Source: a virus
DNA: 30,221 nucleotides
Strand: one strand, 5' to 3'
IMG/VR virus record: IMGVR_UViG_3300028553_000786
Location: 1-30,221 of that record
A program made the translations under genes and the position numbers. Numbering within the stretch: position 1 is the first letter of the stretch; the number at the start of each line of letters is the position of its first letter. The notes under the pieces are model-generated. The model was not told the DNA's origin and made no database searches. It saw only the letters and a list, made by a program, of their open reading frames with translations. Positions 1 to 29,853 of the stretch are shown in pieces.

Positions 1-315
1 GGTTTGGCTACCGTTGCTTATGTTCCTAAACAAAAAGTCCTCGGACTATCCAAAATTAACCGCATTGTTGAGTATTTCAGCAAGCGCCCTCAAATCCAAG
101 AACGACTCACTGAACAGATCTTCCATACTCTCCAATTTATACTGGAGACTGAAGATGTTGCGGTGATGATTGATGCGCAACACTATTGTGTTAAATCCAG
201 AGGTGTTGAAGATACCGGATCATCTACAGTAACAGTTCGCCTCGGTGGTGGATTTAAAACAGACTCATCTGCAAGACACGAGTTTTTGAGTATTGCAAGG
301 ATGACAGGTAAATGA
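1..315 (+). CDS. folE: GTP cyclohydrolase I, C-terminal part (5' end outside the window)
   Basis: The reading frame is open from base 1, so this is the C-terminal ~104 residues of a longer gene. The stretch [15 protein letters not shown], the helix after it and [20 protein letters not shown] match the end of the FolE tunnelling-fold enzyme, including the Cys of the zinc/active-site loop and the closing beta strands. FolE converts GTP to dihydroneopterin triphosphate, which feeds folate or, through QueD, QueE and QueC, 7-deazaguanine synthesis. A QueD homologue and a DpdA-type transglycosylase lie downstream on the same strand, so supply of a modified base for phage DNA is the likelier role here. 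The stop codon overlaps the start of the next small ORF (ATGA). Family identity is secure; the start is not visible. Confidence 0.93.
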
Positions 316-2012: not shown

Positions 2013-2522
2013 ATGACAGTTAATATTATGGTTGACTTAGAAACAATGTCAACAAGATCGCATGCAGCAATTTGTTCTATTGGTGCAGTGAAATTTGAGG
2101 GTAAAGAAATACTTGATACTTTTTACTGTACAATTGATTTAAAGACCTGCAAAGAGGCAGGTATGCATATCTCTAAAGATACAATCAAATGGTGGTCGGA
2201 GCAAAACAAAGAAGCTTTGCGAGAACTTACTCGCAATAATATACCACTAAAACAAGCACTGGATGATTTCGAAGAATGGTTCGGACCTAAGAGTCTACCT
2301 GTCTGGGGTAACGGTGCAGTATTTGATAATACAATTTTAGCCAATGCTTATTTTAATACTGACAGAGAACCACCTTGGAAATGCTGGGACGATCGTTGCT
2401 ATCGTACAGTAAAGGCTTTATTCCATTGGGTGCCTGTAGATGCTCGAGAAGGTGTTTACCATAATGCCTTAGATGATGCTATGCATCAAACTAAACACTT
2501 AATTAAAATACTAGGTGAATAA
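2013..2522 (+). CDS. DEDDh 3'-5' exonuclease (DexA-like / Rv2179c-like)
   Basis: A 169-residue RNase H-fold exonuclease. The first catalytic motif is VDLETM with Asp8 and Glu10. The second is GNGAVFDN with Asp105. The third is YHNALDDA with His150 and Asp155, giving the DEDDh pattern of the DnaQ superfamily. Length and motif spacing resemble the stand-alone exonucleases grouped with T4 DexA and mycobacterial Rv2179c. Such enzymes degrade DNA or RNA from the 3' end with two metal ions. AGGA (2002-2005) precedes the ATG. It sits inside the putative base-modification and glycosyltransferase operon and overlaps the next start by one base. It could help degrade host DNA or clean up unmodified DNA, but the substrate is unknown. 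Confidence 0.85.
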   Translation: MTVNIMVDLETMSTRSHAAICSIGAVKFEGKEILDTFYCTIDLKTCKEAGMHISKDTIKWWSEQNKEALRELTRNNIPLKQALDDFEEWFGPKSLPVWGNGAVFDNTILANAYFNTDREPPWKCWDDRCYRTVKALFHWVPVDAREGVYHNALDDAMHQTKHLIKILGE

Positions 2523-3889
2523 TGAATACATATAAGAAGCGCATCGCTTTTTGTTTAAGTGATCAACATACTATTCCTCACGGAGGATTAGGTCAATTTG
2601 CTAAAAGTTTTATTGAGACTTTTACACCACTCGGTTATAAGATAGATATCATTACTGATAAACCTACTTCTAATCTAGCATTCAAAGAATACTTAGAAGA
2701 AGCAGGTGCAAATTTTATATGGTCACCTACAGCAAGATCTTATAGCACACATACTAAAACATTCATGTTTGAAGATTCATATAACTTCGAAAAGATGAGT
2801 TCCTTTAGAGATGCTATGATGTATGCCTTGAATAAAAATCTTTATGATATTATTATTTGCAATACGTTAGAATCATTTCCGGGCATTTATGCTCTTAACT
2901 TACATAAGACTGTTCAAGTAATCTATTACACTCATAATGAAAGTATGGTCTTCTTAGATGATAGATCATGGAAAAATGAGTTTACAGAATCATTCAATGA
3001 AGTGTTTAATGCTTTGATGAGAGTCAAAGGTATCACTATTGGCACACAAACTTTACGCAATCGTAATGAATTGCTTGCGCAAAACTTGTTCAATTCTTAT
3101 GAGCTTCCAATTCCAATGACCGAAAAAACATTATTGGAAGAAAACAATCAACCAAGAGAAGGTGTACTTTGGATTGGTCGTTGGGAGCCAAGAAAGAATC
3201 CCGAGGAATTTATCCGTGTTATTAAAGAAACAGGATTGCCTGCAAAGGTTATTACTAACACCAATGGTGCTAAAAAGTTTGAAGAAGCTCTAAAGGCAAT
3301 AGATGCTAAATATGAAATAAAGATTGGTGTGTATGGTAAAGAGAAGGTTGACTTTATTACGTCTGCTAGAGTCGCTTATAATCCTGCAATCAGAGAAAGT
3401 TTCGGTTTAGCTTTTTATGAATGTATGGGGCAATTGCCAACGGTTGCTATAAAGGGAATGTCCTGGTTAGATAACTTTAGTAACCAATGGTATTGGTGTG
3501 AGGAAAAGAAAAATATTCCTAAATTGATTTTAAAACTATACGAAGACTTTGCCGATTCTAGAGTTTGGTATAGTAAGTCGCCTCTGCAGAGTATTGTAGC
3601 AGAACATGCGACAGGAATTCAAGCTTGGATAGATGTATTTGAATCATTCAAACCCGCAGAATCAAATTCTGATAGAGCAACAATTAATGAATATGACAAT
3701 ATAAATTATTCCGATTTTATTATCAAACTAAATAGGAAAGATTTAGCTGTCGATGATGTCCGTTCTGTATTGACAAACAAGACAAAATTTAATATAATTT
3801 ATACAGATGAGAACACCTATCTATCTAAGGATCTCAATTTTGTTCCAAAAGAAGACAAGGCACATACTTTAGAAAGTTTATTCGAATGA
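2522..3889 (+). CDS. GT-B glycosyltransferase with a C-terminal extension ending in a clamp-motif-like tail
   Basis: A 455-residue glycosyltransferase. The N terminus has the glycine-rich acceptor-side loop HGGLGQFAKSF. The donor domain begins near residue 213 with GVLWIGRWEPRKNPEEF, and the nucleotide-sugar motif RESFGLAFYECM lies near residue 290. About 80 residues extend beyond the usual end of the fold. They are charged and end in DKAHTLESLFE. This terminus resembles the C terminus of the next gene product, DpdA (SLEDLFA), and the short C-terminal clamp-binding tails known in T4-type phages. The stop overlaps the dpdA start (ATGA). T4 alpha-glucosyltransferase has been reported to contact the gp45 clamp, so a DNA-directed transferase is plausible. 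The sugar and acceptor are not determinable here. Confidence 0.82.
   Translation: MNTYKKRIAFCLSDQHTIPHGGLGQFAKSFIETFTPLGYKIDIITDKPTSNLAFKEYLEEAGANFIWSPTARSYSTHTKTFMFEDSYNFEKMSSFRDAMMYALNKNLYDIIICNTLESFPGIYALNLHKTVQVIYYTHNESMVFLDDRSWKNEFTESFNEVFNALMRVKGITIGTQTLRNRNELLAQNLFNSYELPIPMTEKTLLEENNQPREGVLWIGRWEPRKNPEEFIRVIKETGLPAKVITNTNGAKKFEEALKAIDAKYEIKIGVYGKEKVDFITSARVAYNPAIRESFGLAFYECMGQLPTVAIKGMSWLDNFSNQWYWCEEKKNIPKLILKLYEDFADSRVWYSKSPLQSIVAEHATGIQAWIDVFESFKPAESNSDRATINEYDNINYSDFIIKLNRKDLAVDDVRSVLTNKTKFNIIYTDENTYLSKDLNFVPKEDKAHTLESLFE
3770..3798 (+). promoter_or_regulatory. Perfect sigma70-consensus promoter inside the glycosyltransferase gene, upstream of dpdA
   Basis: TTGACA (3770-3775) and TATAAT (3793-3798) are separated by exactly 17 bases, a 12/12 match. 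The expected transcription start near 3805 is about 80 bases before the dpdA ATG at 3886. It lies within the C-terminal extension of the upstream glycosyltransferase, in a stretch coding for LTNKTKFNIIYTD. This would give dpdA and the genes after it early expression by host polymerase, independent of the folE operon. A chance match is possible in AT-rich coding DNA, but the full match and the placement are favourable. Confidence 0.6.
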
Positions 3890-5175
3890 GCAGACAATTA
3901 GAATACGTTATATCTGGACCAGCATATCTACGATTAGGTTCAGAACAATGTGAAGACCCAGACACATTGAATATGATAATTAATATGATGAACAAAACTG
4001 TTCATAATAAAAATAACCATCAGTTTTCATTATTGTATAATGGGTTTACGGAGAAAAACTTTGGTAAGAAATTACAGAAGTTTAGACCTGCTATTAAAAA
4101 CATTCATGCTGACTCTGGCGGATTGCAAATTATTACTAGAGGATTACCTAATACTCCAGAAACTCGCAATAAGGTTTATGAGAATCAAGGAACGTATGCA
4201 GACATTGGTATGGCGTTTGATGAAATCCCAGTTAAGTCTACATCTGCAGATGGTACGTCTGCAAAGATTGATACCAAGCGTCGCTATGTAGATATGGAAA
4301 ATTTTGAGACATATGCTAGACAAACAGGCAAAAACGTTAAAGATCAAATTTTAAAATTCGATTCATTGAACAGTAAATGTAAACCATTTATTATTTTGCA
4401 GGGTTCGGGTGCAGATACTTATAAGCAATGGGGCGAATTCCTATTAGATGAAGTTCCAAAAGAATTACATCATCGTATTGGTGGTGTTGCTATCGGATCA
4501 GCTGCACTAGGTATGGGCCCTTTGGAGGATGTCAAGAGAGCATTCTATGTAAACTCTGTTCCATTGGAAAGACCATTTCATTTACACGTATTAGGTGTTG
4601 GTGCACTTAAGCGTATTTTACCATATCTATTATTTAGTCAAACTGGTCTATATGAAGGCATTGATATTTCATATGATTCGACAACACATTCTATGTCGTT
4701 AGATAATGGATTGTTCTACTTCTCACACAGCAAGAAAAAGAATCCTAGCGACTATGGTGGTTCTTCAGTAAAGATGGGTAGAGAATATTCTAACATTTAT
4801 AGAACAGTTGTTAATGAGATTAATTCAGTATGTGATACAGATTACACACCAGAAGAATATCACAAGTTAATGAATATTTCTGTTGGTCTATATTTAGAAC
4901 AAGGTGGAAAATTCATTGATGTAATGAGAGCAAGATTGGCATTCATTTTAACGAATGTCCATAATTTCACAATGGATGTTTCTAATTTAATGAACAGCAA
5001 AGAAGAATTTTTAAGATTTTGCAGAGATAAAGGATGCGAGAATGAATATGCAACTTTATTTGATGTAAAAACAAATGATGATTTTATTCACTGGGAAAAG
5101 AATGTAGGTAGGTTCATGGATTCAGAACCCGTTAATTCCGTAGCCCCATCTTCACTTGAGGACTTATTCGCATGA
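3886..5175 (+). CDS. dpdA: DpdA-family transglycosylase (TGT-like, inserts 7-deazaguanine into DNA)
   Basis: A 429-residue TGT-like TIM-barrel protein. HADSGGLQ (75-81) matches the DSGGFQ active-site motif of tRNA-guanine transglycosylases with Asp76. GGVAIGS (199-205) and HVLGVG (234-239) match the base-recognition and barrel motifs. GIDISYDSTTH (259-268) places an Asp (260 or 264) where TGT has its nucleophile. The Cys-rich zinc site of bacterial TGT is not apparent, as expected for a divergent phage DpdA. DpdA enzymes exchange guanine in DNA for preQ0 or related bases and protect phage DNA from restriction. The C terminus ends SLEDLFA, matching the end of the upstream glycosyltransferase. 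The start overlaps that gene's stop and the stop overlaps the next start, both as ATGA. folE and queD flank it. Confidence 0.87.
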   Translation: MSRQLEYVISGPAYLRLGSEQCEDPDTLNMIINMMNKTVHNKNNHQFSLLYNGFTEKNFGKKLQKFRPAIKNIHADSGGLQIITRGLPNTPETRNKVYENQGTYADIGMAFDEIPVKSTSADGTSAKIDTKRRYVDMENFETYARQTGKNVKDQILKFDSLNSKCKPFIILQGSGADTYKQWGEFLLDEVPKELHHRIGGVAIGSAALGMGPLEDVKRAFYVNSVPLERPFHLHVLGVGALKRILPYLLFSQTGLYEGIDISYDSTTHSMSLDNGLFYFSHSKKKNPSDYGGSSVKMGREYSNIYRTVVNEINSVCDTDYTPEEYHKLMNISVGLYLEQGGKFIDVMRARLAFILTNVHNFTMDVSNLMNSKEEFLRFCRDKGCENEYATLFDVKTNDDFIHWEKNVGRFMDSEPVNSVAPSSLEDLFA

Positions 5176-5597
5176 TTGTAAAAACAGATAGTTATATTTG
5201 GGTAACCTTTCAGAAAGAAGGTATCCATAAGTATCCTGCAGCAGCAACTGATCCTAAGTTGGCTACAGGTGATTGGTTAGATGTCTCATTCTTAGGAACA
5301 CCTCATAGACATATCTTTCATTTTAGAGTTGAGATGCAGGTATTTCATGATGATAGAGATGTTGAATTTATTCAAGCAAAGCGCATTATGGAGCGTTGGT
5401 ATGCAGATGGAACATTGCAATTAGATTATAAGTCTTGTGAAATGATGGCAAAGGACCTACACAATAAATGTATCAGTACATGGCCAGACAGAGACTATGT
5501 AATTGAAGTATCAGAAGATGGAGAGAATGGTTGCAGAATGTATTTCTCGCATATTAAAGGTAAAGATGTTACACCAAGGATGTATGTAAATGAGTAA
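5172..5597 (+). CDS. QueD-like tunnelling-fold protein, catalytic Cys absent
   Basis: A 141-residue protein that follows dpdA with an ATGA overlap. I do not recognise it by name, but its architecture parallels 6-carboxytetrahydropterin synthase. FQKEGIHKYP (13-22, His19) sits where QueD has FEAAHRLP. PHRHIFHFRV (44-53, His45 and His47) sits where QueD has LHGHSFMVRL. SCEMMAKDL (88-96) matches the Glu helix, and VSEDGENG (113-120) the final strand. The three zinc-binding His positions are therefore plausible, but the Cys that precedes HGH in QueD is missing. It could be a second enzyme acting on a pterin or 7-deazaguanine intermediate, or a DpdA partner. The fold is inferred from motif spacing only; the neighbourhood strongly links it to the modified base. 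Confidence 0.5.
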   Translation: MIVKTDSYIWVTFQKEGIHKYPAAATDPKLATGDWLDVSFLGTPHRHIFHFRVEMQVFHDDRDVEFIQAKRIMERWYADGTLQLDYKSCEMMAKDLHNKCISTWPDRDYVIEVSEDGENGCRMYFSHIKGKDVTPRMYVNE

Positions 5598-6759
5598 GTT
5601 ATATTATATGGGTTTAGAGCCCTATGAAGGTCGGTATACTTTACAACTTCAACACTGGAGTGAAGATGTGTTTAAGCGTAGAGGTATTGACTACGAAGTT
5701 ATTCATGGTGATTTCTTAGACAGTTCTAAGTCTATCGTAACAGGGCAAGTGCTTGATGCACACGGTCGTAGTTATTATTCTTTGACACAAATGGCAAGAC
5801 TTGTCGCAAAGATGAAGGCAGGAGAAATTACCTGGGAAGATACTATTTTCTTTGAGGATATGTTTACCCCTGGTATGGAAGTGTTGCCTTATATTATGGA
5901 TCAAATGTCGTGGGAATATCATCCTCGTATCTTTGTTCGTTGTTTGGCACAGACCATTGACCCAGATGATTTCCTTCATGTCTGGGATATGCAGAAGTGG
6001 ATGGGCTTCTATGAGAAAATGACAGATCATTTTGTGACGGGTATTCTTGCATCAAATGAAGAGATGGTTGCTCATATGAAGATTGCAGGTTGGGAAGCAC
6101 CAATCTTTAATATCTCGGGTTTAGCATTTGACAAAGATGAAGTTCAAAGTCGTGTAAAGAAAATTAAACCATTCATCAACCGCAAAAAGCGAGTAGTATT
6201 TGCTGCTAGATTCGATCAAGAAAAACAACCCGGATTCTTTATGGATCTGATTGAAGACTATGGTAGTTATAATCGAGATGTAGAGTTTGCTGTTTTATCA
6301 GGCGGACCATTACGTAGTAACGATCAAAAGTATTTAGATCGGGCAAGAGAATTAGAAAAGACTGCCAATTTTAAGATCTATGAAAATCTTAAAAAGAATG
6401 AGTATTATGAATTGCTAGCAGATTCTCGAGTATTATTTAATTGTGCTTTACAGGATTGGGTAAGTAACACAGCATCAGAAGCAGATGCACTAGGAACAAA
6501 TTGTTTATATCCTGCGTATAGATCTTTCCCTGAAACATTTGCGAATGATGCAGAATGTTTATATGTTCCTTGGTCTATGGAAGATGCTAAAAATAAATTA
6601 GATCATTTGCTAGTTAACCCAAGAAAAAGAATCGGACAATTATCCAATTGGACAACGGGTACCATTGATAGATGTTTAGATATCATGTTTAATACTAATG
6701 ACCATTGGTTCCGTAATACTAAAGATTATAGAAAATATGTACCAGAATCAAAATATTAA
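5590..6759 (+). CDS. GT-B glycosyltransferase (GT4-like)
   Basis: A 389-residue protein overlapping the previous gene by 8 bases. The N-terminal half is divergent and aromatic-rich, including FFEDMFTPG and a large acceptor domain. The donor domain opens near residue 201 with RVVFAARFDQEKQPGFF, the usual first strand and loop of GT4 C-terminal domains. Near 283 NCALQDWVSNTASEADALG aligns with the donor-binding helix, where the Glu after Ser-Ala would contact the sugar nucleotide. There is no membrane segment. It is followed by a GalE-like epimerase that overlaps its 3' end, which suggests that the epimerised UDP-sugar could be its donor. I cannot tell whether the acceptor is DNA base, lipid or protein. 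Confidence 0.8.
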   Translation: MSKLYYMGLEPYEGRYTLQLQHWSEDVFKRRGIDYEVIHGDFLDSSKSIVTGQVLDAHGRSYYSLTQMARLVAKMKAGEITWEDTIFFEDMFTPGMEVLPYIMDQMSWEYHPRIFVRCLAQTIDPDDFLHVWDMQKWMGFYEKMTDHFVTGILASNEEMVAHMKIAGWEAPIFNISGLAFDKDEVQSRVKKIKPFINRKKRVVFAARFDQEKQPGFFMDLIEDYGSYNRDVEFAVLSGGPLRSNDQKYLDRARELEKTANFKIYENLKKNEYYELLADSRVLFNCALQDWVSNTASEADALGTNCLYPAYRSFPETFANDAECLYVPWSMEDAKNKLDHLLVNPRKRIGQLSNWTTGTIDRCLDIMFNTNDHWFRNTKDYRKYVPESKY

Positions 6760-7816: not shown

Positions 7817-8296
7817 ATGGCTAAATATATCTCAACAAAAACTTACAGACAAATAGGACCCGTAGCATATAGACAATGGAGAGCCGACAGTCATTGCAAT
7901 TTAATTCATGGATACGCTTTAAGTTTCCATTTTGAATTTGAATGTGATACTTTAGATGCTCGTAATTGGTGTATGGACTTTGGTGGTCTAAAAGATTTAA
8001 AACACAATTTAGAAGACTGGTTCGATCACACATTGTTGGTTGCTCAAGATGATCCTAAAAGAGATGAACTATTGCGACTAGGAACATTGGGTCTTGCTAA
8101 GATTACAGAAGTAGAAAAGACTGGGTGTGAAGGTATTGCAGACTTTTTATATGAATATGTCAATACAATTTACTTGCCACAGTATGGTAAAGCTGAAGCG
8201 GAGCGCATCTGGTGCTCTAAAGTAGAAGTTCGTGAAACGGATTCTAATATGGCAATGAGGGTAGGACATCGTGAAGATAGAGAGTTCAGCGACTAA
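7817..8296 (+). CDS. queD: 6-carboxytetrahydropterin synthase-like protein (QueD), HGY variant
   Basis: A 159-residue tunnelling-fold protein preceded by a strong GGAGG (7807-7811). RADSHCNLIHGYALSF (22-37) holds His26, Cys27 and His31 of the QueD zinc/catalytic site. The usual HGH reads HGY, so the third zinc-ligand position is Tyr33. I recall this HGY form from other phage and alphaproteobacterial homologues. MDFGGLK (53-59), FDHTLL (69-74), the Glu105 helix and VEVRET (136-141) complete the family pattern. QueD turns dihydroneopterin triphosphate into 6-carboxytetrahydropterin, the QueE substrate. QueE and QueC are not in this window and may be encoded nearby or by the host. Together with folE and dpdA it indicates 7-deazaguanine DNA modification. 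Confidence 0.82.
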   Translation: MAKYISTKTYRQIGPVAYRQWRADSHCNLIHGYALSFHFEFECDTLDARNWCMDFGGLKDLKHNLEDWFDHTLLVAQDDPKRDELLRLGTLGLAKITEVEKTGCEGIADFLYEYVNTIYLPQYGKAEAERIWCSKVEVRETDSNMAMRVGHREDREFSD

Positions 8297-16550: not shown

Positions 16551-17387
16551 ATGCACACCAATGAAATAGTACACGATACATTTATTCCTAGATGGTTTGG
16601 CCGACTTGGGAATAACATACAACAAATATCTAATGGGATTTATTTTTGTAGAAAAAATAATATACGATTTACTTCGCCCGACCATCCTTATATAGAACCT
16701 ATTGACATAGACTTTGGAAATAATGAATATAAAATAAAAGACGATTCCCATAATTGGTTTTATTTCTTTCAGGGTGAGGATGCAGATTTTCAGGTAGATG
16801 TAGATGATTTAAATCTACAAAGAAAGCAAATTTGCGAAGAATACATACTACCCAAACTAAAGATAAATCATGCAGAATTAGATGATGTATTTGATGACGA
16901 TATTTTAGTAGCACATATTAGAAGTGGAGATGTATATTCTCCAAGAACACATCCTGCGTATGTTCAAAATCCTCTTTCATATTATCTACAACTATATGAA
17001 ATGTTTAATCGCAAAGTTATATTTGTGACTGAGGATACTGATAGTATTATTGCTAAAGCATTTGAAAGTATCAAAATCCCTATTAATGTTTGTGATGTTA
17101 CTCAAAGTATGACATTAATGTTACGAGCTAAAGCAATCGCAACATCGGGAGTAGGTACATTTGCTCTATCGGCAGCATTTTGTTCTAAGAACATTAGTAA
17201 ATTATATTGTACAAATTTATGGTTACCTAATGCTCTTAATCCTAGTATGTTAAAAGAGCAACTTGATGTCTATAGTGCGGACATCGACGACAATAAATAT
17301 ATTAAAATAGGTGAGTGGCATCATTCGTCTGATACGTTTAAACGAGTTATTGAATACAACGACCATATATCATTTAGGAGATTATAG
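16551..17387 (+). CDS. Fucosyltransferase-like protein (GT11-type signature)
   Basis: A 278-residue protein. [12 protein letters not shown] (17-28) resembles the GRxGNQ motif and HIRSGDVY (122-129) the HxRRGD motif of GT11 and related GT-B fucosyltransferases, where the Arg contacts GDP-fucose. Near the C terminus [13 protein letters not shown] is the expected donor-pocket Ser/Gly loop. The ATG has no clear Shine-Dalgarno sequence and lies 13 bases after a strong hairpin. Genes for GDP-mannose dehydratase and a GDP-fucose-synthase-like enzyme follow immediately, so a GDP-6-deoxyhexose donor made by its neighbours is likely. The acceptor could be host lipopolysaccharide, phage protein or DNA. 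Family confidence is good; the sugar could be fucose or colitose. Confidence 0.75.
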
Positions 17388-17388
17388 C

Positions 17389-18402
17389 ATGGCAAACAAG
17401 GTTGCTCTTATTACGGGCATTACTGGGCAAGACGGTTCTTATCTTGCAGAATTATTATTAGAAAAAGGTTACGAGGTTCACGGAATTGTCCGTCGTAGTT
17501 CTTCTATGAACACGGGTCGAATTGACCACATCTATAGCAATCCAAATTTACATCTTCACTATGGTGACGTAACAGATTCTTTATCTATTATGAACGTATT
17601 GAAGAAACATAATCCATCCGAGATCTATAATTTAGCAGCACAAAGTCATGTCAAAGTTTCCTTCGATACGCCTGAATATACAGCAATGGTTGATGGATTA
17701 GGCACACTTAAGATTTTAGAATCTGTTAGATTATTAGGAATGGAAAAAACAACTAGGATCTATCAAGCATCAACATCTGAACTATATGGATTGGTTCAGG
17801 AAATACCACAAAAAGAAACAACTCCTTTCTATCCTAGATCGCCATACGGTGTTGCTAAGTTATATGCATATTGGATTGTTAAGAACTATCGCGAATCATA
17901 CAATATGTTCTGTTGCTCAGGCATTTTGTTTAATCACGAATCTCCTCGCAGAGGTTTCAACTTCGTTACTAAGAAGATTGTAAATGGATTGGAAGCAGTT
18001 AGTTCTGGTCGTCAGGAGTGTTTGACATTGGGTAATTTAACAGCATTGCGAGATTGGGGACATGCTAAAGATTATGTCGAAGCAATGTGGTTAATGCTAC
18101 AACAAGATAAGCCTGAAGATTTTGTTATTGCGACAGGTGAACAATATACAGTGAAACAATTCGTAGAACATTGTGCTCCGTATTTTGCGTTAAAGATTCG
18201 CTGGGAAGGTGAAGGTTTGAACGAGGTTGGTATAGACGAAAACACTGGTCGAACTGTTGTTAGAGTTGATCCTAAATATTTCCGACCTGCAGAAGTTCAA
18301 ACTTTGTTAGGAGATTCCTCAAAGGCTAGGGGTGTCCTCGGCTGGCAACCTAAACATTCTTTCGACGATTTAGTCGAAGATATGTGTTTGAATTTTGATT
18401 GA
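17389..18402 (+). CDS. gmd: GDP-mannose 4,6-dehydratase
   Basis: The start is the ATG at 17389, with GGAG at 17377-17380; an upstream frame start at 17311 would run through the preceding gene. The 337-residue product has the NADP-binding motif [10 protein letters not shown] (9-18) and [13 protein letters not shown], specific to Gmd. It also has the catalytic Thr129 in STSELYG with Glu131, and YGVAK (153-157) with Tyr153 and Lys157. NHESPRRG is diagnostic. It converts GDP-D-mannose to GDP-4-keto-6-deoxymannose, the branch point for GDP-fucose, GDP-perosamine and GDP-colitose. GDP-mannose must come from the host or from outside the window, because no manB or manC is seen here. Confidence 0.95.
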
Positions 18403-18409
18403 GGGTAAT

Positions 18410-19345
18410 ATGGAAAAGAATAGTAAAATATTTGTAGCAGGACATAATGGTCTTGTCGGTTCATCTATTGTAAGAAAACTAAAAGAAGAAGGATATACAA
18501 ACCTTATCTTAAGATCAAAGGCGGAGTTAGACCTTCGAGATCAACGAGCAGTTAAGAACTTCTTTAGTACAGAACTTCCAGAATATGTATTTTTGTGTGC
18601 TGCTAAAGTTGGCGGCATCAATTGGAACTGGACAAATCCTGGTGAGTTTATTTACGACAACTTACAGATTCAAACGAATGTTATAGATGCAGCATATCGC
18701 AATGGCGCTAAGAAATTGTTATTCTTAGGTTCTGCTTGCATCTATCCAAAGGTTACCCCTCAACCTATCAAGGAAGAATATCTTCTTACAGCTCCACTTG
18801 AGCCTACAAATGAGGGGTATGCTTTAGCAAAAATTACTGGTCTACGTATGTGCGAATACTACAGACGTCAGTATGGGTTTAATGCTATTAGTTGTATGCC
18901 TGCAAACTTATATGGCATTAATGATAACTTCATTCCTGAGCATGGTCATGTTATTCCTGGTATTATTACTAAGATGCATAATGCTATGATAAATGGAGAA
19001 GATAGTATTGAATGTTGGGGAGACGGAACACCCACAAGAGAATTCTTATACGTAGATGATTTAGCCGATGCTTGTTTTTGGTTAATGCAAAACTATGATG
19101 AAAAGGAATTCGTGAATGTTGGTAGTGATGAAGAACTTACAATTAAAGAACTTGTAAACAAACTAACAAAAGAGTTTGGATTCAAAGGTAAGGTTGTTTG
19201 GAATAAAGATAAACCAAATGGCACACCAAGACGCAAAATGGATAATAGCAAATTAAAGTCTCTTGGATGGAATGCCAAAGTCAATTTTGACGATGGTTTA
19301 AAACGTACAATTGCTTGGTATAAAAAGGAAAAAGGATTACTATGA
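18410..19345 (+). CDS. fcl: GDP-L-fucose synthase-like epimerase/reductase (Fcl or ColC type)
   Basis: The start is the ATG at 18410 after GAGGG, giving 311 aa; the frame opens slightly earlier but inside gmd. GHNGLVGS (11-18) is the NADP motif. GSACIYPK (107-114) carries Ser108 and Cys110. YALAK (137-141) holds Tyr137 and Lys141. HGHVIPG (178-184) contributes His180. Cys and His are the acid/base pair for 3,5-epimerisation in Fcl. With gmd it makes GDP-L-fucose. The neighbouring DegT enzyme has a dehydrase-like active site, so the natural substrate might instead be a 3-deoxy keto sugar, which would make this a ColC-like GDP-L-colitose synthase. Sequence alone does not decide. Confidence 0.88.
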   Translation: MEKNSKIFVAGHNGLVGSSIVRKLKEEGYTNLILRSKAELDLRDQRAVKNFFSTELPEYVFLCAAKVGGINWNWTNPGEFIYDNLQIQTNVIDAAYRNGAKKLLFLGSACIYPKVTPQPIKEEYLLTAPLEPTNEGYALAKITGLRMCEYYRRQYGFNAISCMPANLYGINDNFIPEHGHVIPGIITKMHNAMINGEDSIECWGDGTPTREFLYVDDLADACFWLMQNYDEKEFVNVGSDEELTIKELVNKLTKEFGFKGKVVWNKDKPNGTPRRKMDNSKLKSLGWNAKVNFDDGLKRTIAWYKKEKGLL

Positions 19346-20511
19346 GATGGCCTTTAATGGGTGAGACAATCACCTTTACCGATAGACTTAAGATGGCGCA
19401 TTTTGCGCTTACTGCAAAGAAGTTTACCTTTGGCGATAAGGTCAAAGAGTTTGAACATGAGTGGAGTAGATGGCTAGGCGCCAAACATTCATTGTATGTA
19501 TCGTCCGGAAGTACAGCAAACTTTTTACTTGTTGCTGCAGTCATGGAATTGTACAATCTTAAACGAGGCGATAAAGTTTTATTGCCTGCTTGTACTTGGA
19601 TGACGAATGTTTCGCCAATAATTCAACTAGGTCTCGAGCCAGTATTTTGCGACATTAATATAACTAATTTTAGTTTTGATATTGCAGAAGTAAAAAATAT
19701 TGCTAAGAAACATGATATAAAGATGGTCTTTGTTACTCATCTACTTGGCTTCTCTGCAAATAATGAGGCATTGCAAGAAATATTCCCGAATGCTATTATC
19801 ATAGATGATATATGTGAATCGCATGGCTGTACTAGTAATGATGGCTCTAAAAGAGGATCTAATAGTATAGGAGCAACCTTCAGCTTTTATTTTGGACATC
19901 ATATGTCTACGATTGAAGGTGGTATGATATCCACAAACAATACTGATCTATATGACTTAATGAAAATAAAACGCAGCCATGGAATGGCAAGAGAGTCTAT
20001 CAGGTTTGGCGATTATGCAGAATTACATCCTGAGATAGATAAGCAATTCTTGTTTGTTACAGATGGATACAATTTTAGAAATCATGAAATCTGTGCAGTA
20101 CTCGGATTGTCGCAACTCAAGCGTTTAGATAATATGATTAAAATTAGGAATAGAAATCATTCTAAATTTACTAGAATCATTGATAATTATCCTCATCTCT
20201 TTTATAATATTAAAGACTCGGTGACGAATAGTAGTTTTTGCTTGCCCTTCATTTGCAAATCTAAAGAAATAATGTTGGCAATGAAAGAAACATTCACTAA
20301 GAATAGTATTGAATACAGACCAGTTGTTGCTGGTAATTTGTTAGCCCAGCCATTCTTAAAAGATTACGAAATTGACACAGATAAAGAAGAGACAAATGCT
20401 GCCTTAGTACATACACAAGGTGTATATGTGGGCAACAATCATTTTGTCAATGATATAGATATGGAATTTTTAAAACAAGTTGTTGAGGAAATAGATGACA
20501 AATTTAGGTAA
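19342..20511 (+). CDS. DegT/DnrJ-family PLP enzyme with His in place of the catalytic Lys (ColD-like)
   Basis: A 389-residue fold-type I PLP enzyme starting in an ATGA overlap with the previous gene. SSGSTANFLL (54-63) binds the PLP phosphate, LPACTWMTNV follows, and DDICESHG (155-162) supplies the Asp for the pyridine nitrogen. In the usual FSFxxxKxxTTGEGG motif this protein has FSFYFGHHMSTIEGG (180-194), so His186 stands where aminotransferases have the PLP-binding Lys. This is the hallmark of 3-dehydrases such as ColD and E1/RfbH, which remove the C3 hydroxyl instead of transaminating. With gmd and fcl upstream, it could produce GDP-4-keto-3,6-dideoxymannose on the way to colitose. The Lys loss is seen directly; the reaction is inferred. 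Confidence 0.82.
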   Translation: MRWPLMGETITFTDRLKMAHFALTAKKFTFGDKVKEFEHEWSRWLGAKHSLYVSSGSTANFLLVAAVMELYNLKRGDKVLLPACTWMTNVSPIIQLGLEPVFCDINITNFSFDIAEVKNIAKKHDIKMVFVTHLLGFSANNEALQEIFPNAIIIDDICESHGCTSNDGSKRGSNSIGATFSFYFGHHMSTIEGGMISTNNTDLYDLMKIKRSHGMARESIRFGDYAELHPEIDKQFLFVTDGYNFRNHEICAVLGLSQLKRLDNMIKIRNRNHSKFTRIIDNYPHLFYNIKDSVTNSSFCLPFICKSKEIMLAMKETFTKNSIEYRPVVAGNLLAQPFLKDYEIDTDKEETNAALVHTQGVYVGNNHFVNDIDMEFLKQVVEEIDDKFR

Positions 20512-20848: not shown

Positions 20849-21815
20849 AATTGTATTCTTCAATCACTATCATCGTGGTGATCTATTAACACACAAAGAA
20901 TTTATTCGTCAACTTAAAAGTGAACTCCCCAATGTTACTTTTGAATATAAACACTTTAATCATCCCAAGTTGACTAGAGATTTAGATGTACCATTGGTAG
21001 GAGATCCGAAGGATTTAGATCATAAGACCCCATTTTATCAAGACGGTGATACATTGTATGTTAATACGTGGATAGGATGCTTCTGGGATATATTCTGCGA
21101 GCATGGTGGAATTAATATGAATTCCCTCTATCACCAATGGGAAAAAATATTTGCTCAAATAAATGCAGTGTTTAATGTTGACATTGGTATGTATGAAGAT
21201 AAAGAAGAATATCTATCATCTATAGATTTTTCACGATTTGATGTATCTAGTATCAATGAGTTCTTGTCTAGTAACACTAATAAAAATATTCTTATTTGTA
21301 ATGGACCCCCTCAATCGGGACAATCGTTTGCGGATAATATGCAACAATTCTTAGAGCCACTTGCACAAAGATATACAAATATTAATTTTATCTGTACTAC
21401 TAAATTTGAGACTTCGATTCAAAATATTTTATTTACAGATGATATTATTGTAGATAATGAAGTTGCTGAAGCACGTGCACCGTGGGAAACCCGTCAGAAG
21501 AATAACTGCGATCTACAAGAAATTTCATACTTGAGTGAAAAGGTTGATGCTATTGTAGGTAAGAATTCAGGTCCCTTTGTTTTCTGTGAAACAAAGAACA
21601 ACTATATGAATCCTGATAAGAAGTTTTTGTCATTCAATGTTAGTTGGGGTCCTGCATTTCAAACGGGTCAGAGCAGACCAACAGAGACGATGTCTAATAG
21701 TTTAGCATATAAATGCCAATATGAGATTGTCCCTATTAGCGATATCAATACGCTAACAGATACAGATAAAAGCAATATTAGTAATTCTTTAGATAAACTT
21801 GCAGCAAGCCTATGA
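20841..21815 (+). CDS. Glycosyltransferase-like protein (GT-B, GT9-like features)
   Basis: Starting at the ATG at 20841 (324 aa) fits the first beta strand NKIVFFNHYHRGD; the frame also has an ATG three codons earlier. The N-terminal half resembles a GT-B acceptor domain. ILICNGPPQSGQSFADNMQQ opens the second domain, and VGKNSGPFVFCE resembles the Ser/Gly-Pro loop at the donor site of heptosyltransferase-like proteins. I cannot assign a donor. It overlaps the upstream gene by 8 bases and the GT10 gene downstream by ATGA. No membrane segment is visible. Confidence 0.6.
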   Translation: MNKIVFFNHYHRGDLLTHKEFIRQLKSELPNVTFEYKHFNHPKLTRDLDVPLVGDPKDLDHKTPFYQDGDTLYVNTWIGCFWDIFCEHGGINMNSLYHQWEKIFAQINAVFNVDIGMYEDKEEYLSSIDFSRFDVSSINEFLSSNTNKNILICNGPPQSGQSFADNMQQFLEPLAQRYTNINFICTTKFETSIQNILFTDDIIVDNEVAEARAPWETRQKNNCDLQEISYLSEKVDAIVGKNSGPFVFCETKNNYMNPDKKFLSFNVSWGPAFQTGQSRPTETMSNSLAYKCQYEIVPISDINTLTDTDKSNISNSLDKLAASL

Positions 21816-22687
21816 GAAAACTTAAACTAGGGTTTACTGATACCCATGACCATTTAGCACAATTCTTCAGTTCTATTCTAGCCAATAGATTTGATGTTGA
21901 GATTGATAATGAAAATCCTGAGTATTTGATCTTCGGTGATGAAAACTTTGGAACAAATAATAAAAAATTTAATAGGTCCGACGTTGTTAAGATTTTCTAT
22001 ACAGGCGAGAACCGCAGACCAGAAAATTATGACTGCGATTATGCTATTACATTTGACCACAATTTTAATAATTCACACTATCGTTTACCTTTGTATGTAA
22101 TCTATCAATGGTCTTTAGAACAAATACACAAGACAAAGTATAGTTACTATCATCTATTAGGTGATAATGAGCCTCAGGAAAAAACAGATTTCGCTTCTTT
22201 TGTAGTATCAAATGGTAATTGTAAAGAGCGTAATGAATTTTTTGAAAAGCTATCTGCATATAAAAAGGTAGATAGCGGTGGTAGATTGTTTAACAATATT
22301 CAAGCAGATCTTAGCGGAGAAGAAGCAAAGATTGATTTCTTAGCTAAGAGAAAATTTAATATTTGTTTTGAATCCGGTTCTTATCCTGGATATACAACAG
22401 AGAAAATACTCCATGCTTTTTACGCAAAAACTATCCCTATTTACTGGGGAAGCCCTACTGTTGCTGCAGACTTTAATCCTTCCGCATTTATTAATGTGCA
22501 CGACTTTGATAGTTTCGATGATGCGATAGAATATGTAAAGCAAGTAGATAATGACGATGAGCTATACAATAAAATTGTAAATGCTACTCCGCTTGCAGGA
22601 AATGTTCCTAGAGATTATATGTTGTTGAACAATTTTTTAAATTGGTTTGATGCTGTTGTTTACAATAAGATTGACCGCAACGAATGA
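21812..22687 (+). CDS. GT10-family alpha-1,3-fucosyltransferase-like protein
   Basis: A 291-residue protein with the signatures of GT10. FYTGENRRPENYDCDYAITFD (62-82) contains the conserved Glu-Asn near the acceptor site. KKVDSGGRLFNN (151-162) is the family's Asp-x-x-Gly block. FNICFESGSYPGYTTEKI (182-199) contains the Glu, Tyr and Lys that bind GDP-fucose, followed by IPIYWGSP. Bacterial GT10 enzymes transfer L-fucose from GDP-fucose, as Helicobacter does when making Lewis antigens. The donor would be provided by gmd and fcl in the same operon. It lacks the C-terminal heptad repeats of Helicobacter enzymes. Start and stop overlap neighbours as ATGA. Confidence 0.87.
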   Translation: MRKLKLGFTDTHDHLAQFFSSILANRFDVEIDNENPEYLIFGDENFGTNNKKFNRSDVVKIFYTGENRRPENYDCDYAITFDHNFNNSHYRLPLYVIYQWSLEQIHKTKYSYYHLLGDNEPQEKTDFASFVVSNGNCKERNEFFEKLSAYKKVDSGGRLFNNIQADLSGEEAKIDFLAKRKFNICFESGSYPGYTTEKILHAFYAKTIPIYWGSPTVAADFNPSAFINVHDFDSFDDAIEYVKQVDNDDELYNKIVNATPLAGNVPRDYMLLNNFLNWFDAVVYNKIDRNE

Positions 22688-25454: not shown

Positions 25455-25726
25455 CATACAAATATAATGAGGGAGAACTCTTAAAAGAGTTTAAAGAATA
25501 TATCGATGCCACCTACGGCGAACACTATTCAATGAATAAATTTCAGGCAACCGAATTTATTATTGATAGTGGGCATGGTGTCGGATTTACCGTTGGGAAC
25601 GTAATAAAATATGCCCAAAGATACGGAAAGAAAGCCGAAAGGAATAGACAAGACATATTAAAGGTGTTACACTATAGCATGATGTTATTATATGTACACG
25701 ACATTGAAACCAAGGAGATTAAATAA
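25439..25726 (+). CDS. DUF3310-like small protein
   Basis: A 95-residue protein. DSGHGVGFTVGNVIKYAQRYGKK (about 48-70) followed by NRQDILKVLHYSMML is the conserved block of DUF3310, a phage family sometimes labelled nucleotide kinase-like but of unknown function. Its position right before the sliding clamp marks a return to replication genes. The start lies within the end of the GT2 gene and the stop overlaps the gp45 ATG by one base. No catalytic residue can be named. Confidence 0.68.
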   Translation: MEKEIAYKYNEGELLKEFKEYIDATYGEHYSMNKFQATEFIIDSGHGVGFTVGNVIKYAQRYGKKAERNRQDILKVLHYSMMLLYVHDIETKEIK

Positions 25727-26382
25727 TGCAGATTAGTAAAGAAACAATTGATATCCTAAAGAATTTTGCTGGGATCAACAGCAACATTCTTATCAGAAAA
25801 GGTAAAACCTTATCCACAATTAGCACGGCAAAAAACATTTTTGCTAAAGCAACAGTCGCAGAAGACTTCTTAGAAGAAGTTGCGATCTATGATTTGAATT
25901 CTTTGTTGGCATTGCTAACATTAATGGAAAATCAGAATGTTGAATTTGGTGAAAAGAGTTTGACAATTTCTAAAGACTCAGGTAAATTTGAATATTTCTA
26001 TTCTAGCCCTACTGTTATTGTTGCGGCGCCTACGAAGGATATTGAAGTAGATACACACTATGAGTTTAAGTTAACAGCAGAAGATGTTAACATGATTATG
26101 AAGGCCGCAGCTATTACAGGTGCTCCTACAATTACAATCGCTTGTAAGGGCGACGATGTTACTTTGACAATTGGTGATAAGAAAAATGATACGGCAAATA
26201 CCTATAAGAAAGTTATAGGTAAATGCGAGCACACATTTGATTGCCATATGGCAGTAGAAAACTTCAAGATCATTCCTGATGCTTATTCAGTAACAATCTC
26301 GAAAAAGAAAGCATTCCAATTTAAACACGCAACAAAACCATTGGGTTATTTTATCGCAATGGAACCTGATTCGGTGGTGTAA
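25726..26382 (+). CDS. 45: Sliding clamp gp45 (DNA polymerase processivity factor)
   Basis: A 218-residue protein with AAGGAG before the ATG. MQISKETIDILKNFAGINSN matches the N terminus of T4-type gp45, and the rest has the alternating strand pattern of two PCNA-like domains. It ends in KPLGYFIAMEPDSVV, the final strand of the clamp family. A trimer of gp45 encircles DNA, tethers polymerase gp43 and, with gp33 and gp55, activates late transcription. gp44 and gp62, its loader, follow. In this window two proteins (the glycosyltransferase at 2522 and DpdA) have tails that might dock on this clamp. Confidence 0.92.
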   Translation: MQISKETIDILKNFAGINSNILIRKGKTLSTISTAKNIFAKATVAEDFLEEVAIYDLNSLLALLTLMENQNVEFGEKSLTISKDSGKFEYFYSSPTVIVAAPTKDIEVDTHYEFKLTAEDVNMIMKAAAITGAPTITIACKGDDVTLTIGDKKNDTANTYKKVIGKCEHTFDCHMAVENFKIIPDAYSVTISKKKAFQFKHATKPLGYFIAMEPDSVV

Positions 26383-26909: not shown

Positions 26910-27851
26910 ATGGATTATCGTGAAAATGAATTTTTGTGGGTTGAGAAGTATCGCCCTCGTAAATTAGAAGACTGTATCTTACCCGCAGACCAAAAGACCA
27001 TCTTTCTAGAGATGTTGTCTAAAGGTGAGATACAGAATATGCTATTATGCGGTGGTGCTGGTATGGGCAAGACCACAGTTGCCCGAGCATTATGTGAAGA
27101 ACTACAAACAGACTATATCGTAATTAACGGTTCGGAAGAATCTGGTATTGATGTTCTTCGCACAAAGATTAAACAGTTTGCATCTACTGTATCATTCAGT
27201 GGCAAGGCAAAGGTTGTAATTTTAGACGAGGCAGATTATCTTAATCCCAATTCTACACAACCTGCACTAAGAGCATTTATAGAAGAGTTTTCGAATAACT
27301 GTAGATTCATTCTTACTTGTAACTTTAAGAATAGAATTATTCCTCCATTACATTCTCGATGCGCTGTTATCGAATTTAAATTACCTAAAGCAGATAGACC
27401 AAAGATTGCGGCAGCATTCTTCAAGCGCGTTACTGAGATTATGTCAATCGAAAAGATTGAGGCAGATGGTAAAGTAATCGCAAAAGTTATCGAGAAACAT
27501 TTCCCCGATTATCGACGTGTATTAAATGAGCTACAAAGATATTCAGCCTCAGGAAAGATTGACGAAGGAATCTTTGTTAATCTAGGTGAGTCTAATATGC
27601 AAGAACTAATCGCTTGTCTAAAAGATGGCGATTGGAAAAAGATGAGAACTTGGGTTGTTAATAATATTGATAATGATCCTGGAACAATCTTTAGAAAATT
27701 ATATGATACACTAACCGATCATGTTAAGCAAGTACCGCAATTGGTTTTGCTATTGGCAGATTATCAATATAAATCTGCATTCTGCGCTGACCAAGAGATT
27801 AATCTAGTTGCTTGTTTAACTGAGATTATGGCGGCGGTAGAATTTAAATGA
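26910..27851 (+). CDS. 44: Clamp loader ATPase gp44
   Basis: A 313-residue AAA+ protein. LWVEKYRPRKLEDC (9-22) is the family N terminus. Walker A is GGAGMGKT (48-55) and Walker B is VVILDEAD (102-109). Sensor 1 lies in FILTCNF, and the arginine-finger SRC motif is at 149-151. Length equals T4 gp44 (319 aa). Four gp44 and one gp62 load gp45 onto DNA. The next gene, a membrane protein, overlaps its stop by ATGA. Codons and composition match the neighbours. Confidence 0.95.
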   Translation: MDYRENEFLWVEKYRPRKLEDCILPADQKTIFLEMLSKGEIQNMLLCGGAGMGKTTVARALCEELQTDYIVINGSEESGIDVLRTKIKQFASTVSFSGKAKVVILDEADYLNPNSTQPALRAFIEEFSNNCRFILTCNFKNRIIPPLHSRCAVIEFKLPKADRPKIAAAFFKRVTEIMSIEKIEADGKVIAKVIEKHFPDYRRVLNELQRYSASGKIDEGIFVNLGESNMQELIACLKDGDWKKMRTWVVNNIDNDPGTIFRKLYDTLTDHVKQVPQLVLLLADYQYKSAFCADQEINLVACLTEIMAAVEFK

Positions 27852-28135
27852 TAGATATTTTTCAACCTACTATACAATGGATCAAAGATGACTGGAATTC
27901 TAATCGCATTCGCTTTGCTGCCGAGCTTGTTGCTTGGGCTATTAGTATTGGGTGTAGCATTACAATGGCACTTACCGTACCAACACCTCCCCTCCTGGCT
28001 CTTTATCCTGTTTGGATTGCTGGCTGCGCTATCTATGCTTGGGCTGCTTATACTAGGAAATCTTTTGGGATGCTTGCTAACTACATCCTGCTTACTACCA
28101 TAGACACAATTGGTTTGGTAAGGATGTTGACATGA
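27848..28135 (+). CDS. Small integral membrane protein
   Basis: A 95-residue hydrophobic protein with about three membrane helices: roughly 21-43 (FAAELVAWAISIGCSITMAL), 47-66 and 72-93. The loop Ala-Tyr-Thr-Arg-Lys is positively charged. It starts in an ATGA overlap with gp44 and ends in one with gp62, so it is co-translated with the clamp loader. I recall similar membrane proteins in other marine T4-like phages; the function is unknown. A shorter + frame and a long - frame overlap it but lack these couplings. It may anchor the replisome to the membrane or act on the host envelope; this is inference. Confidence 0.75.
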   Translation: MIDIFQPTIQWIKDDWNSNRIRFAAELVAWAISIGCSITMALTVPTPPLLALYPVWIAGCAIYAWAAYTRKSFGMLANYILLTTIDTIGLVRMLT

Positions 28136-28590
28136 GTTTATTCGGAGAACCAGTAAAGAAAATTGAAGAGGTTCCTTATAAAGCGCCAGCAATATCACCT
28201 TTCGATTTTATTAACGCAATACATCATAGTAAGGATAATCTAATAGTTGACGATTGGTCGGAGAAACAGTATAATCCATATATCATAAACAAAGGTTTGT
28301 CATATGGACACGATACAGTAATCCCAGCCAATGAGATGAACTCGCGTCCGCATCTGGACAAAATACTACAATTTCATTTTCTTATAAATATCATTAGGCC
28401 TAAAAAAAGATTTAATAAATGGATCAAGGCTGAGAAAATCGATGATTTGGAGGTTGTCAAAGAATACTATGGTTATAGCACAGAAAAAGCTAAACAAGTA
28501 CTCCCACTCTTAAATGATTCGATCTTAGATGAGATGAAAAAAAGAATAACAAAAGGTGGTAAGAATGAGTACCGATCTAATCAACATTAA
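28132..28590 (+). CDS. 62: Clamp loader small subunit gp62
   Basis: A 152-residue protein located exactly where T4 has gene 62, between gp44 and RegA. It begins MSLFGEP, like T4 gp62 (MSLF). It contains SPFDFINAIHHSKDNL near the N terminus and a helical segment HFLINIIRPKKRFNKWIK, where T4 has the basic PRGKRYGKWAK block. It is shorter than T4 gp62 (187 aa). It forms the clamp-loader complex with gp44. Similarity is weak overall, so gene order carries much of the evidence. Confidence 0.8.
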   Translation: MSLFGEPVKKIEEVPYKAPAISPFDFINAIHHSKDNLIVDDWSEKQYNPYIINKGLSYGHDTVIPANEMNSRPHLDKILQFHFLINIIRPKKRFNKWIKAEKIDDLEVVKEYYGYSTEKAKQVLPLLNDSILDEMKKRITKGGKNEYRSNQH

Positions 28591-29343: not shown

Positions 29344-29853
29344 ATGACATATTTTTTAAACAACCTACCTAAAGATTTTGACAAATTTTTTGTAGGATTT
29401 GACGACCAATTCAATCGCCTTTCAAAGATCCATGATGATCTAACGAAAGCAATTCCAAACTATCCTCCATACAATATCAAGAAAACCGGCGATAACACTT
29501 ACGTTATCGAATTGGCTATTGCTGGATTTGCTAAGCAGGATATTGAAATTGAATTAGCAGACGGCAAAATGATTATTAAAGGCAATGTAGAAAATACAGA
29601 AGCTGAAGATAATTTCTTGTTCAAAGGTATTGCAAACCGAGCTTTCACTCGTACCTTCGCTTTAGAAGATACGATAGAAGTTAAGGATGCAGCAATGATG
29701 AATGGCATGCTTAAAGTATTCTTGGAAAAGATTATTCCTGAGCACAAGAAGCCAAAGAAAATTGAAGTTAAAGATACAGAAGCAGAAACAAAATCTTCTA
29801 AAAAATCTAAAGCTCAGTTTTTAACAGAAGATCCTTTGAGTCGTGATCTATGA
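29344..29853 (+). CDS. Small heat shock protein Hsp20 (IbpA-like)
   Basis: A 169-residue alpha-crystallin-domain protein. YNIKKTGDNTYVIELAIAGF (43-62) is the first strand pair, ELADGKMIIKGN the next, and LFKGIANRAFTRTFAL contains the IbpA-type FKGIA-R-F-R-F block. NGMLKVFLEKIIPE ends the domain with an Ile-x-Pro-like anchor. A Lys-rich tail of about 30 residues follows. Hsp20 genes are common in aquatic T4-like phages, presumably to hold unfolded phage or host proteins during infection. It is preceded by AGGGG and overlaps the next gene by ATGA. Confidence 0.92.
   Translation: MTYFLNNLPKDFDKFFVGFDDQFNRLSKIHDDLTKAIPNYPPYNIKKTGDNTYVIELAIAGFAKQDIEIELADGKMIIKGNVENTEAEDNFLFKGIANRAFTRTFALEDTIEVKDAAMMNGMLKVFLEKIIPEHKKPKKIEVKDTEAETKSSKKSKAQFLTEDPLSRDL

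Follow-up and report, generated by a model that had tools for sequence, protein, structure and literature searches.

The base-exchange enzymes of deazaguanine modification work on DNA that is already complete, and how phages steer them to their own new copies is an open question. A 30,221-nucleotide stretch of viral DNA (IMG/VR record IMGVR_UViG_3300028553_000786; hereafter, the window) bears on it. Here the gene for a glycosyltransferase (GT) overlaps by four bases (ATGA) with that for a DpdA protein, and the two products share a short motif at the extreme C terminus.

Two adjacent genes and their C-terminal tails

The GT ends ...FVPKEDKAHTLESLFE (final residues AHTLESLFE) and DpdA ends ...PVNSVAPSSLEDLFA (final residues PSSLEDLFA); the positions of both genes, of their tails and of neighbouring features are given in Table 1. 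An earlier note on this DNA had described the endings TLESLFE and SLEDLFA on these two neighbours and on no other protein in the window. The coordinates and sequences proved exact, and only the GT and DpdA, two of the 75 window open reading frames (ORFs) of at least 60 amino acids, terminate in the motif; the other glycosyltransferases in the window are without it. The same note spoke of a flexible, charged linker ahead of each tail, which holds for the GT, where the linker is charged and of varying length, but only in part for DpdA, whose linker varies without being strongly charged. In the GT structure model, confidence falls from a pLDDT of 65 in the linker to 47 at the extreme end.

Table 1. 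Positions of the two tailed proteins, their motifs and associated genes in the window, with one feature of a second phage group (last line).
Feature	Position	Strand	Size or evidence
GTP cyclohydrolase I (FolE), cut by contig start, preQ0 pathway	4..315	+	phrog_2197 E 2e-42
GT, GT4-like GT-B fold, C-terminal extension ~residues 380-455	2522..3889	+	455 aa
GT variable linker, ~residues 440-448	3839..3865	+	<=10 residue types per column, indels (36 distinct sequences)
GT tail TLESLFE, clamp-binding-like motif	3866..3886	+	L, E, L, F invariant, 36 homologues
DpdA (DpdA2 type), TGT fold, predicted DNA base exchange	3886..5175	+	429 aa; phrog_10773 E 2e-98
DpdA variable linker, ~residues 414-422	5125..5151	+	<=7 residue types per column
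DpdA tail SLEDLFA, clamp-binding-like motif	5152..5172	+	L, E, L, F invariant, 37 homologues
phrog_17812 protein (VTFQKEGIHKYPAA), no tail	5172..5597	+	phrog_17812 E 1e-31
Second glycosyltransferase of module (MGLEPYEGRYT), no tail	5590..6759	+	Pfam Glycos_transf_1 E 1e-6
QueD, preQ0 pathway	7817..8296	+	phrog_2389 E 9e-40
gp45 sliding clamp, proposed docking partner	25726..26382	+	218 aa; phrog_223 E 1e-64
gp44 clamp loader	26910..27851	+	phrog_168 E 5e-118
gp62 clamp loader	28132..28590	+	phrog_225 E 1e-40
phrog_12062 protein, between DpdA and polymerase, clade B	L211:12343-13071 (G006 88343-89071)		242 aa

DpdA is homologous by sequence search to proteins of Vibrio phages nt-1 and KVP40. 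By sequence it belongs to the same family as the DpdA2 of nt-1, a TGT-like enzyme described in PMC6884629. The DSGG-Q and D-E motifs expected of a DpdA2 are present, with conservation of DSGG, FDEIP and DS-x-H. A sequence search of the PDB gave no match for DpdA and fold comparison was used in its place: the best 50 structural matches of the AlphaFold2 model (mean pLDDT 80) are all tRNA-guanine transglycosylases, with Z scores of 19.2-19.7. The enzyme is predicted to replace guanine in DNA by a modified base. Genes for preQ0 synthesis linked to DpdA, a FolE fragment and QueD, are present in the window; in phage BUCT-ZZ01, QueE, QueD and FolE are annotated beside DpdA. In nt-1 DNA, only ~0.1% of G is present as dPreQ0 (PMC6884629).

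The GT matches Pfam Glycos_transf_1 weakly (E 1e-4, under the curated cut-off), with no match to the Pfam family of T4 alpha-glucosyltransferase, and a PDB sequence search gave weak matches at best. Its model (pLDDT 89.6) has a GT-B fold of the GT4 type with a low-confidence tail, and the best structural matches are TarM, BshA and PimA, with Z scores of ~26-28 (up to 27.6). T4 alpha-glucosyltransferase is not among the structural matches listed for the model, the top ones being GT4 enzymes; its absence from that list does not speak against a structural relationship.

Several further genes were noted in the window. Proteins like that of phrog_17812 adjoin DpdA in BUCT-ZZ01, ACP17, X1 and the second phage group described below (G005, G006 and G013), and N termini like that of the second glycosyltransferase adjoin DpdA in BUCT-ZZ01, ACP17, X1 and PA5oct. 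A glutamine-amidotransferase-like protein near DpdA (428-1069; Pfam BPL_N E 1e-11, GATase weaker) may be part of the modification pathway. The genes at 17311-20511 and 21812-22687 amount to a phage-encoded fucose-type sugar route: they specify a GDP-mannose 4,6-dehydratase, a second epimerase-family protein similar to GDP-fucose synthase, an aminotransferase of the DegT type and a fucosyltransferase of family GT10. By our own reading of the sequence, an ORF at 29344-29853 resembles a small heat-shock protein.

Conservation, specificity and co-variation of the motif

The earlier proposal would fall if the tails were not conserved in homologues, and it withstood this test. L-E-x-L-F is invariant both in DpdA (37/37 distinct sequences, 67-100% identical) and in the GT (36/36, 48-100% identical), while the preceding residues vary freely and indels occur ahead of the tail in GT homologues. 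The pattern is kept at 29-39% identity in the DpdA proteins of BUCT-ZZ01 (SLDSFFD), ACP17 (TLDELFE), Moby (SLDDLFG) and X1 (SLEELFG). It is degenerate in pf16 (TLDLMCA) and absent from DpdA of the KVP40 type, as represented by Vibrio phages phi-pp2 and 6E35.1a, which differs in this respect from the window protein; the phi-pp2 polymerase ends TLESFFG, yet its DpdA has no tail. Hence, DpdA can dispense with the tail, and the KVP40 type rules it out as a universal DpdA feature. Nor is it a general feature of glycosyltransferases, being absent from the others in the window and from distant X1 and Erwinia homologues.

Specificity was assessed on a genome scale by a census of the C-terminal pattern [ST]L[DE]x[LF]F in the 5,363 ORFs of at least 60 amino acids from eight long or complete T4-like genomes, namely BUCT-ZZ01, ACP17 (150 of 156 kb), Moby, X1, phi-pp2 and three IMG/VR relatives (190-222 kb). 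There were 18 matches, comprising eight DNA polymerases, seven DpdA proteins, three GTs and no other protein; the GT of G003 ends NLESLFA, narrowly outside the pattern. Since 7 of 300,000 random C-terminal 10-mers match (~2 in 100,000), two adjacent matches by chance are very unlikely. The regular expressions were devised after the window tails were known, and the cross-genome census is therefore the fairer test. The motif is not at the C terminus of the late sigma factors inspected in relatives (BUCT-ZZ01 gp55 and the ACP17 sigma factor).

The tails also follow the form of the polymerase tail from one lineage to another. In BUCT-ZZ01 the polymerase (TLDDFFS), DpdA (SLDSFFD) and GT (SLEDFFND) have FF in common, and in ACP17 the tails are SLDDLFE and TLDELFE. 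The comparison extends to a second phage group, known from IMG/VR contigs of up to 367 kb and here called clade B, in which DpdA is divergent (E 3e-6 in a profile comparison with the window protein) and carries DSGGFQ. Clade B polymerases end STFDDLFSFG or similar, and DpdA has a motif such as TMFDQLF or TKFNELF at every one of 86 loci, 77 of which also contain the polymerase, such that F-x-x-L-F is common to both proteins. In many clade B DpdA proteins the motif is not terminal and is followed by 15-30 mostly acidic residues, and clade B GTs end in forms such as LSLFEGL and FDLFSFT. PA5oct has HFDSLFGW on the polymerase and SFNSLFDV on DpdA. Across eight lineages, co-variation of the tails gave a permutation P of 0.001-0.006, a value that is supportive and not exact because the lineages are not fully independent.

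Proposed docking on the sliding clamp

T4 provides the precedent for such tails. The polymerase gp43 ends KASLDFLFG and gp55 ends SLDFLYEAND, in the same pattern as the window proteins, and it is established that these hydrophobic-acidic tails bind gp45 and can be exchanged among gp43, gp33 and gp55 (PMC2988020, PMC7892883); the gp55 tail sits on a linker tolerant of change (PMC2988020). The T4 and window tails have in common their position at the extreme C terminus, the sequence S/T-L-D/E-x-L-F/Y and a flexible, variable linker, and both phages encode gp45. The gp45 gene is indeed inside the window, as the earlier note had said, and its product matches the RB69 and T4 clamps in the PDB (1b77 and 1czd; E 5e-18 and 1e-17). 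The polymerases of 13 IMG/VR relatives, which end ATLEGLFG/S/A, stand in for that of the window phage, the window's 30 kb being without a polymerase gene. In contrast to T4 gp43 and gp55, the proteins that bear the tail in the window are an enzyme of base exchange and a glycosyltransferase.

The proposal that these are clamp-docking tails is well supported at the sequence level by the match to gp43 and gp55, by invariance, by confinement to polymerase, DpdA and GT and by co-variation with the polymerase. We consider it likely that both enzymes dock on the sliding clamp, and that base exchange, and probably glycosylation, would ride with replication. In the mechanism we propose, the GT and DpdA would each bear, on a flexible linker, a clamp-binding motif of the gp43/gp55 kind that fits into the hydrophobic gp45 pocket where the polymerase tail also binds. 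Held there, DpdA, as a TGT-type enzyme, would exchange guanine for a 7-deazaguanine in DNA and the GT would probably add a sugar to the modified base. Since gp45 is loaded at primer-template junctions and remains on the new duplex, modification would concentrate on freshly replicated phage DNA. That the enzymes end in the tail by which the polymerase holds the clamp suggests that modification of the DNA travels with its replication. We infer gp45 binding, tethering in the cell, modification after replication and transfer of the sugar to the inserted base. Against this reading stand the tailless DpdA of the KVP40 type, the degenerate tail in pf16, the use of relatives' polymerases in place of the window phage's own, the failure to recognise a gp45 in clade B and the T4 alpha-glucosyltransferase result described below. 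More speculatively, polymerase, DpdA and GT could share one clamp ring, which would then serve DNA synthesis, base replacement and glycosylation alike, with glycosylated 7-deazaguanine appearing behind the fork in several T4-like and jumbo-like groups.

The most probable alternative concerns the substrate of the GT. The tails might bind the clamp while the GT acts on something other than the inserted base, for instance a pterin, a surface glycan or a different base of the DNA, leaving base exchange alone coupled to replication; the many GT4 enzymes matching the GT fold include pterin glucosyltransferases, and the window is rich in other sugar genes. We judge this unlikely, for a clamp tail makes little sense on an enzyme with a non-DNA substrate and the remaining window glycosyltransferases are without one. 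Furthermore, in the records tested the GT is seen only together with a DpdA, and each of the 11 from clade B has the two, whereas DpdA occurs without a close member of the window GT family in Moby, X1, pf16 and the KVP40 type. Such a distribution is what one would expect of a GT that works downstream of DpdA-mediated base exchange. The clamp tail itself supports a DNA-linked role for the GT and predicts a sugar-bearing deazaguanine.

The identity of the docking partner can be questioned in two ways. The census points to a shared ligand but cannot name it, and polymerase, DpdA and GT could compete for some other common replisome partner, such as SSB or helicase; this has a small probability, given that gp45 is the established binding partner of the same tail in T4 gp43 and gp55 (PMC2988020, PMC7892883). 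It also seems hardly likely that the tails bind the beta clamp (DnaN) of the bacterial host, or both clamps, through a motif like the QL[SD]LF box, even though host DnaN is available during infection. L-x-L-F does resemble the bacterial clamp boxes, but the conserved Q of those boxes is missing, with S or T usually in its place, the phage has its own clamp and loader genes, and it is the polymerase of the phage itself whose tail the motifs track from lineage to lineage. Although chance can produce a short motif, a chance resemblance or a functionless inherited peptide is extremely improbable, a chance origin being rejected on the random rate, on invariance beyond a variable linker, on restriction to three proteins (polymerase, DpdA and GT) and on occurrence in non-homologous proteins.

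Docking of both enzymes on gp45 would be a simple answer to the question of targeting, as the base-exchange enzyme would be delivered to freshly replicated DNA. The tethering of a DNA modifier to a sliding clamp is a known principle, exemplified by the PCNA-bound maintenance methyltransferase DNMT1, although enzymes, clamp and modification are there all unrelated to the phage case; DpdA and the GT would be new clients. Another parallel is T4 alpha-glucosyltransferase, which modifies phage DNA and contacts the clamp, both properties being predicted for the window GT. The earlier note had invoked this enzyme, and the contact with gp45 stands, being reported by pull-down (PMC13216743), but the T4 protein has no such C-terminal tail, ending FCFKEQFDIITK, and its acceptor is 5-hydroxymethylcytosine, not 7-deazaguanine. 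The same 2026 study concluded that clamp binding is not the main reason why alpha-glucosylation predominates in T4 (PMC13216743). No paper linking DpdA to a clamp was found among open-access papers, and clamp-binding-type tails on deazaguanine base-exchange enzymes and their associated GT are, as judged from sequence, a real and specific feature that is apparently unreported. A tail matching that of a phage's own polymerase provides a sequence signature with which other phages can be searched for clamp clients and for new modification enzymes.

A clamp candidate and a possible further client in clade B

A clamp loader was found in clade B, and no gp45 homologue was recognisable there with phrog_223 or PF09116. 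The best profile match to gp45 is the phrog_12062 protein, at very low probability (1.7%), and neither Pfam nor the PDB supports its being a clamp. It is possibly an unrecognised sliding clamp, a candidate only. A similar protein of PA5oct is annotated as structural by mass spectrometry. A second clade B protein, of 196 aa (L214:6375-6965; G006 139375-139965), ends ATDLFEFR and is, from this ending, a possible further clamp client. In PA5oct (L463:11995-13617) and its relatives, including Pseudomonas phage Paride, DpdA of the clade B type is annotated as hypothetical, and the PA5oct copy carries a polymerase-like motif.
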